A stretch of 41,580 nucleotides of DNA from Pirellulales bacterium (GTDB lineage Bacteria > Planctomycetota > Planctomycetia > Pirellulales > DATAWG01). Positions 3,033 to 35,037 of this stretch are shown here, piece after piece. The notes under the pieces are model-generated. The model was given only the letters and a program-made list of their open reading frames with translations. It searched no databases and was not told where the DNA came from. Position 1 is the stretch's first letter; every line of letters begins with the position of its first letter. The stretch is taken from assembly GCA_035939775.1 (NCBI GenBank), contig DASZFO010000318.1, positions 1 through 41,580 on the forward strand. Reading direction: 5' to 3'. Both the position numbers and the translations under genes were made by a program.

Positions 3033-3186
3033 TTACCACGAAGGTCACAAAGGACACGAAGAGAGGATTGTATCACAAGCTGATACGGAAGCGATGAATG
3101 ACAAAACCAGAATCAGCAGAAATCGGCCGATCGCGCTGAACATCCACCCTCATTTTCCTTGGTGCTCTTTGTGTCCTTCGTGGTAA
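3033..3186. repeat. Inverted repeat pair (ACCACGAAGG-type) between HAD gene and gnd
   Basis: The left arm at about 3033-3061 starts TTACCACGAAGG and continues with CACAAAGGACACGAAG. The right arm at about 3161-3186 is its inverted counterpart, ending CCTTCGTGGTAA, with roughly 22 of 26 positions able to pair. The right arm begins directly after the HAD stop codon and the left arm lies about 45 bases before the gnd start. Translations of such arms (HEGHKGHEE on one strand, FVTFVV on the other) are often mis-annotated as small proteins. It may serve as a transcript-end hairpin between the two genes, but the loop of about 100 bases makes this uncertain. Confidence 0.7.
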
Positions 3187-6056: not shown

Positions 6057-6129
<73 letters not shown>

Positions 6130-6210: not shown

Positions 6211-6414
6211 CGGTGCGAAGCAACCAATTGTGCTGCAAACGGTTGAACGTTTCAAGGGCCGAGCGGCGGCCAGAAAACGGCGGTTGCCGATTTCGGATGC
6301 CGGACTGCGCTTTGCTTGGAGACGCGGAAGCGCGAACTTTCCGACAAACAATCGGGGCCGCGATCCTGGCCACCCTCTGGCCAATGGATCGGCATGCGGG
6401 ATGCTCGGCGAAAC

Positions 6415-9419: not shown

Positions 9420-9848
9420 TCAGCTACGATCTTCTCGTTGTCCAATTCGAGCCGTCGTTGTTCGAGCCAAGTGACTTCCCTGTCGCAATTGCAAACTGGT
9501 ATTTGCCAATTCGGTTGAGCCTGGAAGAAACCCCGCTTCGAACGGTCGCCATTTTAACATCGCGTCCGACTCTCGCATGTACCGCATATTGGATTTGGAA
9601 GTGTCTCGAGATCGTGGTGGTCGGCGGCTAAGCGATCTTGCCTGCTCAATCGTTCGATAACGGTGCCGATCCAATTTGTTCGCCTTGTCAAGCTCTGACT
9701 GTCGCTCACGCCAGAATCGCGCGACCCCTGCGCTGAGCGAACAGGCCAGCGCCACAAGGGCGACTGCGATCAGCAACGTCCGCAGGCTGAATTGGAAGCA
9801 GCGGCGTTTGCGCTTAGGCGGATCAGCATTTGGCGGCTCGACATGCAT
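9420..9848 (-). CDS. Small membrane protein of the planctomycete FQFSLRTLL type
   Basis: 142 residues. After a basic leader (PPKRKRR) comes CFQFSLRTLLIAVALVALAC, a signature that starts very many small planctomycete proteins, with a single membrane helix at about residues 23-45. The remainder is polar and basic with no recognised domain. The ATG at 9846-9848 was chosen since it sits exactly 6 bases after a GATAAT box (see the promoter entry), which would make a leaderless transcript; the reading frame remains open upstream into that box. Function unknown. The C-terminal half has the compositional look of a degraded or fast-evolving gene, so partial pseudogene status is possible. Confidence 0.6.
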   Translation of the reverse strand: MHVEPPNADPPKRKRRCFQFSLRTLLIAVALVALACSLSAGVARFWRERQSELDKANKLDRHRYRTIEQARSLSRRPPRSRDTSKSNMRYMRESDAMLKWRPFEAGFLPGSTELANTSLQLRQGSHLARTTTARIGQREDRS

Positions 9849-9884
9849 GGCCGCATTATCCCCGACCGCGGGCAGCCGGAGCAA
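9849..9884 (-). promoter_or_regulatory. Repeated promoter-like cassette (copy a), likely leaderless start
   Basis: Read on the minus strand: TTGCTC at 9884-9879, an 18-base spacer, GATAAT at 9860-9855, then GCGGCC and the ATG at 9848. The -10 to ATG distance of 6 bases puts the expected transcription start at or next to the A of the ATG. Five further copies in the window keep the same spacing. Confidence 0.65.
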
Positions 9885-10080: not shown

Positions 10081-13000
10081 TCACGGCATCGCGGCCAGGA
10101 CGGCCAGCGCATCGGCACGGACTGGTGCAAAAAGCAATGGCCTATCGCAACGTGACTCCACAGAATTCACCGCACCTGAGAACACCTGAAGGCGCCACGG
10201 ACCGTTACGAGACAGCAAAACGCTCGCCGAGGTCGACAAACCGCGGACTGGCCGCGGCGTTGTCAACATCGCCGCGTTCAGAAGCACATTGCCCAACGTG
10301 TCGATGACGATGACAGTGGCCGCCTGGTGAGTCGCCGTAAACACCATGTGTCCCCCGGCGCCAACCGGCGGCACGAGCCATCCCTGCGTGCAGCCCCAGG
10401 ACGCGATCGAGCGAGCGGGGATCAGCGCCGCTTCCTGCCAGTGTGACTTCCCGTCGGCCCGAATGCTGAGCGGAGCGAGCATCGCGCATGGTCCGCCACC
10501 CCAGATAACTTTATACACACCGGTCTCGCGGTCCGCGGGGATCGTATGTGCGCGACGATACCCTGCGAACCTCGGACGGCAGTAGGGGACATTGCCCTCT
10601 CCAGCGACGCCATGATCGTAAAAGTCGATCCGATGCCGGCCGGGCTGGGCAGGAGTCGTCAGCGTGATTTGCTTCGGCGAATCGACTGACGCCACGGTGT
10701 AGTTAGCGGCTCTCGCATATGCGTCATCCACGCACAACGCGGTCGCTCGATAGACCCAGGGCGAATCGAATTTCGGCCCAGAAATCCAAGACAGGATGGT
10801 CCCGTCACCCATTGCGGCGGCGATCGTCGTGTAGGGACTGATTGGCCGACCGCGCGGGCTAAAGATTTGCAGCACGCCGCCGGAATCCTGCTCTCGACCG
10901 TCGTTGTCGAAATTGATGGTCCAAGCTTCGTCGGTCGTCTTGAGAATGTAGACGACGACCCGGCGCGGATCATTGAATCCGTAGCTGCTATCCACCACCG
11001 GGTAGCAACCGTATATCAAGTTTGGCGGCGATTTCACGCCGAGCGTCCGCAGGCTGTGGAGAAGATAAGGCCAGATCAACGTTCGCAGTCCCTCGCCCGA
11101 TTGGCCGGCTAGCGCTCCAAAACCGTCGTAGGCTGAATCGGGCGCTGCGACGGTGGCGTAGCGCAGTTGATCGTAAAAGGGCAAATGCCTTGTGGCATAT
11201 GAGGGATCTCCCGTGATCTCCTGGCAGGCCAGATGCCAGTGCGCCGCCGTGGTAGCCCCAGGGCACAATCCCTGGCGGTGCTCGGCGCCCAACCCGTCTT
11301 CACGGCCCGAATTGAAAACCGACGTGTTGGCCACAAGGTAGACGGACATCGCTGGATCGCGAGTGAACCGCCAATAGTCGCTCATCCAAGTCGGATGCCA
11401 AGTCGCCGTCGACTGCTTGGCGATCGGTATCTCCATCAGATTTGCAGCCAGCGCCCGCATCGCCGGAAGCATTCGCAAGTCCCATTCTTGTTGAAAGAGA
11501 TGCACGAGGCGAACCAGATCGCAGTGCGCATCGCGCTCGCGGCCGGCCAACTCGCAATAGAGTACGTTCCAGAAATACTTCAGCCACAGTTGATAGTTGT
11601 CCAGTGCGTAGCGATCGTCGGCGACCATGTAGCCGAGCAGAATCCCTTCCAGATCGACATGATGCCCGTTCGGCTCCGTTGGTCCCGCCCAGTGATAAAT
11701 GCCCTTGTGGTAGAAGCCGGCGTATCCCGCGTAGCGGATTGCATCCACGCTGACGGCATGATCGAGCACGCGTCGGCCCAACGCCAGCAGGTCGGAATCG
11801 CCGCTTCGCAAATACAGCGTGAAGATCGTCATCAGCGAATAGTAGTGATTCGAGTAGCACGTGCGGTATTCGCTCGGCCTGTCCTCCGGCAGCACCCAAT
11901 TGTGATGCGTGTCGCCGTAGTTGAACTTGCCGGTAAAGTTGGACAGCCGACCGAGATTGTAGAAGCCGACCACCGCTCTCTTAACCGCCGCCTCAATCTC
12001 CGGAAAGTCGGTGCCTTTTGCGGCAATCGGCCCGCTCGGCATCGGCTGAACAGCCTCGAGCCAAGTCGCGGGCGGCGTGGCCAATGGGTTTTGTAGGAAG
12101 AGCGCATTCCAGTTTGCCTGATTGTCGGCTGCCGGCATGATGGCGAACTCGGTTGTGAACGAAAGATAAGGAACTTTCGCGGCCAGCATCTGCGCGGTCG
12201 CGTTCCAACCAGGATCGGTTTCGTTTCTGTACTTGGCGTTGAACTGGTCCGCGTAGGCCTGTGGCCACTTTAGGGCCAGCAGATGTCCAGAATGGAAACA
12301 CAGGCCGCGATGGAAATTCTGTGGCGAGAGCTGCTCGGCTTGCGAGTAGGTATTGTCTCGGCCATGCAATGGCCACGAATGGAGCACAATGCGGTCGCGG
12401 CCCCATTCGACTTCTTGCGGAAAGCGTTGCCAAAACTCTTTGACGAACAAGGTCATCGCGCGAGTTTCCGGCAGCACAAGGCTGAACCAGCCGTCGCACT
12501 TCCGCCCGGATACGCTGCCCGTGACAACGTCGTCGCGCTCTTGATGAGCAAAGACGGAGGCGGTGGCAGAAAGCGGGCCGCCAGCCGATTTGCCGTCTAG
12601 CCCAAGCGAGTATTGCGATGCTCCGGCAAATGGAATGTCGAACGCAAGGTCGGCGATCCGCGGCGCCTCCACGGCATTCCCATTCCACTGGAACGAATGT
12701 TGAAACCTGATCGCCGGCGAGTCCGCGGCGATGCGGATTCGCGTCGTAAACTGCCAAGGGCCGGCAGCTCCGGCGGCGTCACGAAATGTCCCCGTGATCT
12801 TGACGACCGCCAGTGCGGCGCCTCGCGACTCGATAACTACCGATGCATCATGGCCCATCATCCAGCGCTTGCCGTGCTCATCGACAATGCGCTGGGATGC
12901 CGGTTCTGCGCCGTTGATGCTAATTCCTCTGAAGGGATGCGCGATCGCGACTCGAGCCTGCGAACAAGTAATTGTGATTCCTGCTGGTGTTTCGTCTATC

Positions 13001-13993: not shown

Positions 13994-14476
13994 CTATTCT
14001 CGCTCACGACCGGCGGCAAAGCGGGCGATCATGCCGCCGATTGTAGCGAGAATCAGTGCCCAAAGACACTGGCCGATAAGGCGGAAGTCTCCCGTCATCC
14101 GAGCGTAGTCCGTGCCGCCTGGCGCGTAACCTGTCAATGGGTGAAATCTGTTTTGCAAGAACCAAACGGATTGCGTCGTGACTAGACAACTGAACAATTC
14201 CGACGCCAATGGCGTCACCATGAGGGCTAGGTAGCCCCACACACAAATGGAGAATCCGACCCAAAACGGTCGTCCGTATACAGCCTGCACAACGGAGAAG
14301 AGCAATAGGAACACCGCAATGCTAACAGTCGCAAACGCCCAGCCATCCGTTGCGAAGCGCATCGCTGCTAATGCGAAGGAAAAGGCGACGACGGCGATAA
14401 GCAGCGTCCGCAAGCTGAATTGGAACCAGCGGCGCTTGCGCTTGTGCGGGTCAGCTTTCGGCGGCTCGGTTTGCAT
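13994..14476 (-). CDS. FQFSLRTLL-type multi-pass membrane protein
   Basis: 160 residues: basic leader MQTEPPKADPHKRKRR, then WFQFSLRTLLIAVVAFSFAL and further hydrophobic segments (WAFATVSIAVFLLLFSVVQA; PFWVGFSICVWGYLALMVT; LIGQCLWALILATIGGMIA), so about four membrane helices. Function unknown; the N-terminal signature is shared with the proteins at 9420-9848 and 22137-22469. The start at the ATG 14474-14476 lies 6 bases after a GATAAT box in a second copy of the promoter cassette. The first 17 codons closely match those of the gene at 9420-9848 and of the truncated gene at 29099-29212, as if promoter and gene start had moved together. Confidence 0.75.
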   Translation of the reverse strand: MQTEPPKADPHKRKRRWFQFSLRTLLIAVVAFSFALAAMRFATDGWAFATVSIAVFLLLFSVVQAVYGRPFWVGFSICVWGYLALMVTPLASELFSCLVTTQSVWFLQNRFHPLTGYAPGGTDYARMTGDFRLIGQCLWALILATIGGMIARFAAGRERE

Positions 14477-14512
14477 GCCCGCATTATCCCGGACCTCGGA
14501 CAGCCGGTGCAG
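14477..14512 (-). promoter_or_regulatory. Repeated promoter-like cassette (copy b)
   Basis: GATAAT at 14488-14483 followed by GCGGGC and ATG; the -35 position 18 bases upstream has diverged to CTGCAC. The intervening bases still match the other copies (CGGCTG...). Spacing is identical to copy a. Confidence 0.55.
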
Positions 14513-14651
14513 GGGATACGCGGGGCTAAGAAAGCCGCGATCGTGGCCGCCCTCTGGCCGACGCATCGTTCAAGTCCCACAGTTGACGCGGCCGGACGCG
14601 GGCGGTTGGATAGCGGGCGGCGTTGGCACGCGGGGAATGACACGCGTATCG

Positions 14652-15677
14652 TTATTGATTCTCTGACAGTGATTCCCCGCCGGCGCGCGTGGCCAATGCT
14701 TCCCATAGCGACTGATTGACCAAATCCGACACCCAGGTCACGCTCCCGTCGCCCATCAATATGTTACATCCGGCCGGATGATCGGAATGGGTATTATCCA
14801 CGTCCCCTGACGGATCATTAGGTGGCTTAATCAAGGGAGGGTTTCCATGCGGTTCTGGTCCCGTATGAAAATTGATCTGCGGTGCCGCTACATCACAAAT
14901 CGCGGCGGAATATCGGGGGGTCGGACACGTCGCGGCACCGGGGACAATTCCCACCCAAGTCGAGTCGCTGTGCGTCGGTGTCTGTTCGGCGGCGAACATC
15001 GTATGGCTTACGCCGTCGCGGATGTCTTTGACGCGAATGCGGCTGTTGCGAAAGAACACACCGTCCGCCACGCCGCTCAAATCCGGACGCGGATCGGTCC
15101 AGATGTCGTTCCGGCCGGCGCAGAGCACATAATGAGACCGAGAAAACTCCAATGGGAGGCCGTTCCGCTTCAGCGGAATGCCATTGTCATCCTTAATCAC
15201 GTAAGTGACCGACTGATCGCCCACTGAGGGGCAACGGTAAATCGAAATGATCGTCTCAGCCAAAGTGGCGTTCCTCGCGTCCCACGACGGCAGATTTCGA
15301 CTGAAACTCTTCAGCTTCGCCGTTTCTTCAATGTAGGGAAGCAACTGAAATAGGCCGGTGAAGCCGGGGCCGGAATCCCCATTGACATTAGTCGGTCCCA
15401 TTGCGCCGCCGGGCGTTGCAAGATAGGCTGACGGGAATACATGTAGCGCCGATTCGTGGTTGTGCATCGCGAAGCCAATCTGACGGAGATTGCTGCTGCA
15501 CTGCACCTTGCGCGCGGATTCGCGCGCCGCCTGGATCGCCGGCAACAGGATCGCGATTAAGATGCCGATGATCGTGATGACCACCAGCAACTCCACCAGA
15601 GTGAAGCCTCGCCCCTGTCGGAACCGATTTTGACTGAGTCTGCCGGAAGGCGAGCGCACGCTGAATTGATGTTGCAT
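14652..15677 (-). CDS. DUF1559 domain protein with prepilin-type N-terminus
   Basis: 341 residues, one of the pseudopilin-like proteins found in large numbers in planctomycetes. The type IV prepilin motif [19 protein letters not shown] is at about residues 24-42, with cleavage expected after Gly24 and Glu29 as the +5 residue; the segment [20 protein letters not shown] follows, as is usual. The C-terminal end has [19 protein letters not shown], the family's H-x9-DG signature. It is expected to be processed by a prepilin peptidase and to sit in the inner membrane; its job is unknown. The ATG at 15675-15677 lies 6 bases after the GATAAT box of a promoter cassette, so a leaderless transcript is likely. 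Confidence 0.9.
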
Positions 15678-15713
15678 CGCCCCATTATCATCGACCGCGG
15701 GCAGCGGGAGCAA
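15678..15713 (-). promoter_or_regulatory. Repeated promoter-like cassette (copy c)
   Basis: TTGCTC at 15713-15708, 18-base spacer, GATAAT at 15689-15684, 6 bases, then the ATG of the DUF1559 gene. The same cassette as upstream of the FQFSLRTLL genes, although the gene it drives is unrelated. Confidence 0.65.
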
Positions 15714-25474: not shown

Positions 25475-25510
25475 GGCCGCATTATCCTCGACCGCCGGCA
25501 GCCGGAGCAA
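25475..25510 (-). promoter_or_regulatory. Orphan copy of the promoter-like cassette (copy d)
   Basis: TTGCTC at 25510-25505, 18-base spacer, GATAAT at 25486-25481, 6 bases, then GTG (25474-25472) instead of ATG. The frame that follows ends after nine codons, so no protein of use is encoded. It lies between the AI-2E gene and the secreted protein gene at 25562. Confidence 0.55.
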
Positions 25511-27651: not shown

Positions 27652-27757
27652 TAAGAGCCGATCCGAGAGCCGCCGGGGACTGTCCCCCTTTTGCGCAGTC
27701 CGCGGAGCAAAACGGGGATTGTCCCCTTTGCCCACGCGGTTCTAGGATAGGCTCTCA
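27652..27757 (+). mobile_element. MITE-like element, copy A (106 bp, terminal inverted repeats)
   Basis: Starts TAAGAGCC and ends GGCTCTCA; the terminal arms of about 23 bp (GAGCCGATCCGAGAGCCGCC and the inverted GCGGTTCTAGGATAGGCTC) can pair with few mismatches. Inside are two copies of the GGGGA(C/T)TGTCCCC palindrome around TTTTGCGCAGTCCGCGGAGC. Positions 34932-35037 hold the same element in the opposite orientation with only scattered differences. It encodes no transposase; its in-frame translation (AYPRTAWAKGT) is accidental. Confidence 0.8.
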
Positions 27758-27769
27758 GGAAACTCCGCC

Positions 27770-29098: not shown

Positions 29099-29212
29099 TT
29101 ACGCGGCCGCTCCATTCAGGGCATCGCCCGACTTGATCGTGCCGGTCTTGAGGCTCTTGAACCAGCGGCGTTTGCGTTTTGGCGGCTCGGCTTTGGGCGA
29201 CTCGGTCTGCAT
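29099..29212 (-). pseudogene. Truncated FQFSLRTLL-type gene start
   Basis: A 37-codon frame headed by a perfect promoter cassette. The first 17 residues (MQTESPKAEPPKRKRRW) match the start of the gene at 13994-14476, then F-K-S-L-K replaces the FQFSLRTLL signature and the frame ends after TGTIKSGDALNGAAA. No membrane helix is left. It is either a truncated copy or a very small protein of its own; the sister tail (AGTVKLDEALNG) at 30031-30069 suggests the ending is itself a repeated piece. Confidence 0.5.
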
Positions 29213-29248
29213 GGCCGCATTATCCTTGACCGCGGGCAGCCGGAGCAA
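29213..29248 (-). promoter_or_regulatory. Repeated promoter-like cassette (copy e)
   Basis: TTGCTC at 29248-29243, 18-base spacer, GATAAT at 29224-29219, GCGGCC, then ATG at 29212. It lies 15 bases after the stop of the LysE gene. Confidence 0.6.
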
Positions 29249-34872: not shown

Positions 34873-34908
34873 GGCCGCATTATCCCTGGCCGCGGGCAGC
34901 CGGAGCAA
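34873..34908 (-). promoter_or_regulatory. Orphan copy of the promoter-like cassette (copy f)
   Basis: TTGCTC at 34908-34903, 18-base spacer, GATAAT at 34884-34879, GCGGCC, then AAG where other copies have ATG. It lies 3 bases after the stop of the M56 protease gene and points into it, so any transcript would be antisense to that gene. Confidence 0.55.
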
Positions 34909-34931
34909 ACGTCAATCGGTCCGCGTGATTC

Positions 34932-35037
34932 TAAGAGCCTATCCGAGAACCGCCTGGGCAAAGGGGACAGTCCCCGTCTTGCTCCGCGGACTGCGCAAAA
35001 AGGGGACAGTCCCCGGCGGTTCTCGGATAGGCTCTAA
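34932..35037 (-). mobile_element. MITE-like element, copy B (106 bp, terminal inverted repeats)
   Basis: Opposite orientation to copy A at 27652-27757. The terminal arms GAGCCTATCCGAGAACCGCC and its exact inverse are perfect 20-mers here, against several mismatches in copy A, so copy B is the better preserved. Two GGGGACAGTCCCC palindromes flank GCTCCGCGGACTGCGCAAAA. It is bounded by TAA on both sides, a possible target duplication. Confidence 0.82.

Follow-up and report, generated by a model that had tools for sequence, protein, structure and literature searches.

A promoter-like sequence ending in a start codon is dispersed ahead of unrelated genes in a Pirellulales genome

The window analysed here is the whole of contig DASZFO010000318.1 (C318; 41,580 nt) of a Pirellulales MAG (6.39 Mb in 384 contigs, 96% complete). 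By one of its housekeeping proteins, this genome falls close to Pirellulales MAGs. It carries six copies of a sequence designated CORE, defined as TTGCTC-N18-GATAAT followed by 6 nt and a start codon, and scored by its mismatches to a 31-nt consensus. Features of the window are summarized in Table 1. Three of the cores lead into genes (two of the FSLRTLL family and one encoding a DUF1559 protein), and the frame behind the other three is very short or dead. Copies 4 and 6, both among the latter, face a convergent gene, copy 4 lying 51 nt past the stop codon of a 268-aa gene. An Rfam search of the window and of five array loci returned nothing beyond one tRNA.

Table 1. Coordinates of the CORE copies and other features in the window (TAIL, a second repeat described in the text).
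Feature	Position	Strand	Remarks
Weak TAIL-like stretch	6354..6411	-	34 bits; 3 nt past stop of a 559-aa gene; no CORE
tRNA gene	6057-6129	-	
FSLRTLL-family small membrane protein, MHVEPPNADPPKRKRRCFQFSLRTLLIAV..., 142 aa	9420..9848	-	No Pfam family
CORE copy 1	9849..9884	-	0 mismatches to 31-nt consensus; ATG 9846-9848 opens the 142-aa FSLRTLL-family gene
FSLRTLL-family gene, 160 aa, MQTEPPKADPHKRKRRWFQFSLRTLL...	13994..14476	-	
CORE copy 2	14477..14512	-	5 mismatches; -35 is CTGCAC; ATG 14474-14476
TAIL repeat	14516..14625	-	Begins 26 nt past the DUF1559 stop; abuts CORE copy 2
DUF1559 (PF07596) pilin-like gene, 341 aa	14652..15677	-	First codon is the ATG of CORE copy 3; unrelated to FSLRTLL genes
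CORE copy 3	15678..15713	-	3 mismatches; ATG 15675-15677
CORE copy 4	25475..25510	-	2 mismatches; GTG start, 9-codon frame; orphan
37-codon frame after CORE copy 5	29099..29212	-	Family N-terminus MQTESPKAEPPKRKRRWF, then unrelated residues
CORE copy 5	29213..29248	-	2 mismatches; 15 nt past stop of a 208-aa gene, LysE-like (by eye)
CORE copy 6	34873..34908	-	2 mismatches; start codon lost (AAG); faces convergent 521-aa gene; orphan

The six sites of the preliminary description are all present on the minus strand, and the 18- and 6-base spacings are indeed the same in every one. At up to 3 mismatches, 6 pattern matches were found in the window against 0.78 expected by shuffling, and 6 were reached in none of 100 shuffles. 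The full pattern, which had been given as identical at the six sites, is less uniform: TTGCTC-N18-GATAAT is exact at five of them, but together with N6-ATG it is exact only at three (9849, 15678 and 29213), the departures being a GTG start (25475), AAG (34873) and CTGCAC replacing TTGCTC (14477). The conserved block comprises about 42 nt and is thus longer than first reported, its 18-nt “spacer” being almost as invariant as the boxes.

Other features of the window were also recorded. The DUF1559 gene (14652-15677) has a 22-residue extension ahead of the pilin-like motif, starting exactly at the CORE ATG. A 105-nt repeat occurs at 27654-27758 and, inverted, at 34931-35035 (92% identity, with GGGGACAGTCCCC-type palindromes), and a similar sequence adjoins a core in locus L003 near position 10230. 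A 29-nt inverted repeat (TTACCACGAAGGTCACAAAGGACACGAAG) is located at 3033-3061 and 3158-3186, its arms being 86% complementary and 96 nt apart. No inverted repeat was found at the window cores themselves when these were examined for a MITE/REP-type structure.

A genome-wide count of TTGCTC-N18-GATAAT, proposed in the preliminary description, gave 47 exact sites and none for the reversed control. A profile built from the copies yielded 70 genome matches at E<1e-6, followed by a gap. The histogram of mismatches to the 31-nt consensus, based on 763 kb of own-genome DNA containing nearly all copies, likewise shows 70 copies at 0-6 mismatches, none at 7-9, and then a chance tail which the reversed pattern also gives. 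A single orientation of the copies holds per contig or array (one direction in 11 of the 12 contigs with at least two copies), but not across the whole genome; GC skew, examined for a replication-strand bias of copy orientation, is weak. CORE was not found at up to 3 mismatches in 145 relatives, all outside the genus, and a profile search of these genomes gave nothing credible; the best match (G011, E 4e-5) was discarded because it sits within an unrelated reading frame. The exact degenerate pattern is also absent from GTDB r220 (84,980 species) and from IMG/VR viral contigs. The amplification is therefore lineage-specific.

Dispersal ahead of unrelated genes was borne out by the downstream proteins: 62 candidates, whose starts were chosen mechanically so that some will be wrong, fall into 36 blastp clusters. 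The largest cluster (22 of the 62) is the FSLRTLL family, while others comprise DUF1559 pilin-like, LRR and NusG-KOW-like proteins. Inspection by eye added zinc-ribbon proteins, lipoproteins, and acetyltransferase- and glyoxalase-like proteins. Whether or not a gene follows, the cores are equally intact (3.06 mismatches without a gene versus 3.31 with one, p=0.73), so selection for expression of the adjacent gene fails to explain the conservation, which calls for recent copying or homogenisation instead. The copies thus seem to be young or homogenised, and not to have been maintained one by one.

Further genes were noted at two loci outside the window. A chimeric gene, L003:16514-17086, joins a segment that by eye resembles a TatA N-terminus (METMDVAIVVTVVLLLNGNSL) to an FSLRTLL segment, and has a truncated relative at L003:12230. 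A core-bearing contig carries a gene for a 313-aa tyrosine recombinase (L005:2175-3116), whose neighbours encode two very long repeat-rich proteins of secreted type (1562 and 945 aa).

Variation within the copies is distributed unevenly, with 5.8% in the boxes and 11.5% in the spacer (Fisher p=5e-6). Copies that retain the family N-terminus vary least in the -10 box (2%) and in the start codon (2.7%). Even a family member diverged by 11 mismatches retains TTGCT, GATAAT, the spacing and the ATG. Members of the family in other genomes have TANNNT 5-8 nt ahead of the start; in genome G019, which belongs to another family of the same order, a -10 box lies 5-8 nt before the start in 26% of the family genes, compared with 1.8% in the background. 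Among non-core genes of the Pirellulales genome itself a -10 box at 6-8 nt was found in 18 of 512 (4.5 expected), and about 21% of first ATGs have a Shine-Dalgarno-like 4-mer ahead of them. Leaderless and/or S1-mediated initiation was inferred for Planctomycetes in a study of nucleotide bias (PMC5397173).

The conservation of the boxes, their spacing and the start codon supports CORE as a putative sigma70-type leaderless promoter. The leaderless geometry put forward in the preliminary description thus agrees with the best-kept elements and with the -10-to-ATG spacing of the relatives' genes, but many copies start no leaderless gene: behind them comes either a frame that is short or dead or, at a distance of 40-300 nt, a gene that has a Shine-Dalgarno site of its own. 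Leaderless use may therefore suit only a subset of the copies, and some “orphan” cores, in which a dead frame is followed by such a gene, may serve as ordinary promoters with a leader. Two other readings of the element were rejected. A hairpin (TATCCC...GGGATA) is not accompanied by covariation, since position -2 varies between C, G and T and its partner stays G, and a dif-like Xer site (GATAATGCGGCCATG) loses its would-be right arm in copies that lack the family N-terminus.

Homology between copies usually ends at the left edge of CORE. For 187 pairs with at least 72% identity downstream, upstream identity averages 57%, against 55±5% for unrelated DNA, and in one 97%-identical pair similarity begins 2 nt before CORE, the DNA upstream being unrelated. 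The position of the edge can shift, one pair breaking at the -10 box. Two paralogous genes share 87% identity across the 262 nt that begin at the -10 box and are wholly different upstream, one having CORE and the other an unrelated upstream region with TATAAT-GCGGCC-ATG; this pair likely reflects a recent promoter exchange. The word “mobile”, used in the preliminary description, is apt in that a near-identical promoter-like sequence lies ahead of non-homologous genes, but movement itself is inferred from the independent flanks and sharp edges.

The reading that we favour, and hold to be rather probable, is that CORE represents a lineage-specific family of leaderless mobile promoters or 5' modules spread by duplication and recombination. 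CORE would combine a sigma70-type promoter (TTGCTC, 18 nt, GATAAT) with a start codon placed 6 nt after the -10 box, a distance at which the transcript would start on the ATG or immediately beside it. Probably it derives from a family of planctomycete small membrane proteins (MQTEPPKADPPKRKRRWFQFSLRTLL...), whose promoter and start region it would originally have been. Duplication, together with ectopic recombination between copies, would then have carried it through arrays of equally oriented genes, with CORE and a companion 3' repeat, TAIL, serving as the short homologies, and recombination through these sequences would have brought unrelated genes to lie behind CORE.

The main rival to a mobile 5' module is ordinary paralogue expansion with decay. 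On this view, tandem duplication multiplied an FSLRTLL gene along with its promoter, most of the copies decayed into pseudogenes and the core is their remnant, the promoter itself being immobile. The array and pseudogene pattern could also have arisen by such tandem duplication and decay, and the size of the FSLRTLL cluster and the approximately 25 copies that keep the family N-terminus fit it. G019 offers a parallel, as it contains an array in a similar state of decay whose conserved start is another one (ATGCCCCCAGCYCCCAAG..., MPPAPKHTRRWFQF), namely ATG plus 14 codons (MPPAPKHTRRWFQF). Its 31 copies lie in three stretches (L134-L136, on C10, C109 and C59, respectively), all in one orientation, and half of the array frames are shorter than 60 aa. 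Gene arrays with a shared 5' end and a fast-changing remainder are therefore not unique to the Pirellulales MAG; what stands out in the latter is the apparent inclusion of the promoter within the copied piece. We nevertheless consider this rival unlikely: unrelated intact genes (DUF1559, KOW, LRR) start at or just past cores, upstream DNA is unrelated even between recent pairs, and a continuum of decayed cores is missing.

Integron cassette arrays consist of small unrelated genes in one orientation, separated by a repeated junction sequence. The arrays described here resemble them in these respects, and opposite-strand genes are interspersed. The second repeat, TAIL (about 75-120 nt, GAATCCAGCCGCCCGCGTCCGGCCGCGTCAACCGTGGGACGTTGAGAATCCCGCCC...), is found at stop codons of array genes, starting at the stop codon in 12 of 22 cases (11% in the background, p=7e-7), and often directly precedes the next core, which produces an integron-like layout of core-gene-TAIL units in one orientation. 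CORE and TAIL have GCYGCCCGCG in common, and half-site hybrids of both kinds exist, with one clear case each: CORE-left/TAIL-right (L009:1278) and TAIL-left/CORE-right (L003:15215). Together with the sharp left edge at CORE, these observations would suit an undescribed system, analogous to integrons and with built-in promoters, in which a dedicated site-specific recombinase moves CORE-gene-TAIL units by cut and paste, its target being the CORE edge or GCYGCCCGCG, without an integron integrase or attC. Such a system is doubtful to a greater degree than paralogue decay, given that the clear chimeras number only two and that break points do not fall on a single base. In the 96%-complete MAG the integron integrase model (TIGR02249) reached at best 82 bits against a cut-off of 265, its two best matches looking like XerC/XerD. 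Fold tests of TAIL revealed nothing unusual or conserved (z-scores from -1.9 to 0.07, 5 consensus pairs), and no attC-type GTTRRRY boxes were seen by eye in CORE or TAIL. An integron proper was rejected on the integrase and fold results.

The spacer is 13.6% variable, compared with 25.6% at third codon positions (p=2e-5), and its position 13 is G in 71 of 71 copies; this constraint exceeds what a plain promoter needs. Together with the fixed spacing it might indicate a regulon, in which a specialised sigma factor or regulator binds the core and selection acts on every base, including the spacer. This we regard as very unlikely, because copies lacking a gene or a start codon are equally conserved, the approximately 36-42 conserved bases exceed a promoter's need and the sequence is absent from all 145 relatives.

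The proposal that conservation acts on DNA rather than on protein is upheld by the substitutions in the core, which amount to 7.5, 12.7 and 11.5% at codon positions 1, 2 and 3, without a third-position excess. Changes in the ATG frame are non-synonymous in 115 cases and synonymous in 66, an in-frame upstream start is missing in 38 of 70 copies, and the nearest in-frame stop lies within 120 nt in 44 of 69. Where the family N-terminus is present, the segment behind the ATG varies as a translated segment is expected to, with 25.6% at position 3 versus about 12% at positions 1 and 2. Translation of the conserved stretch (LLRLPAVGDNAAM...) and its maintenance as protein, i.e. the RLLRLPAV-type frame named in the preliminary description as the counter-reading, is scarcely credible in view of the codon-position and upstream-start counts, even though the frame is open across the core in many copies and ORF callers extend there; the core itself appears to be untranslated.

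Surface-protein arrays of Mycoplasma (vlhA, vsp) contain paralogues with a common promoter and N-terminal segment, many of them truncated. The CORE arrays share both traits, but include unrelated genes too. They differ from integrons, besides the lack of IntI above cut-off and of an attC-like fold, in that the promoter-bearing repeat lies 5' of the gene. Leaderless genes of bacteria that do not rely on Shine-Dalgarno sites (PMC5397173) likewise carry a -10 box within a few bases upstream of the start and no Shine-Dalgarno sequence, but there the promoters are single and unrelated, whereas CORE is one copied sequence. The dispersed copies also resemble mobile promoters and promoter propagation (Matus-Garcia et al. 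2012; van Passel et al. 2014), which, as represented in the papers citing them (PMC8049555, PMC9208149), are short near-identical promoter sequences ahead of unrelated genes in one genome, without a transposase of their own. As judged from these accounts, CORE is distinguished by its approximately 70 copies in a single genome, by the inclusion of a start codon and sometimes of an N-terminal coding piece, and by its one-orientation arrays with a companion 3' repeat.

Where dispersed promoters bring a start codon with them, whatever DNA comes to lie behind one could be expressed immediately, both as transcript and as protein, with no need for a ribosome-binding site. Rewiring, gene capture or the birth of new small genes could be achieved easily in this manner. 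Planctomycetes possess large families of small membrane proteins that are unexplained. Here, the expansion of one such family would be tied to a defined DNA module, a relationship that is testable by mapping of start sites.
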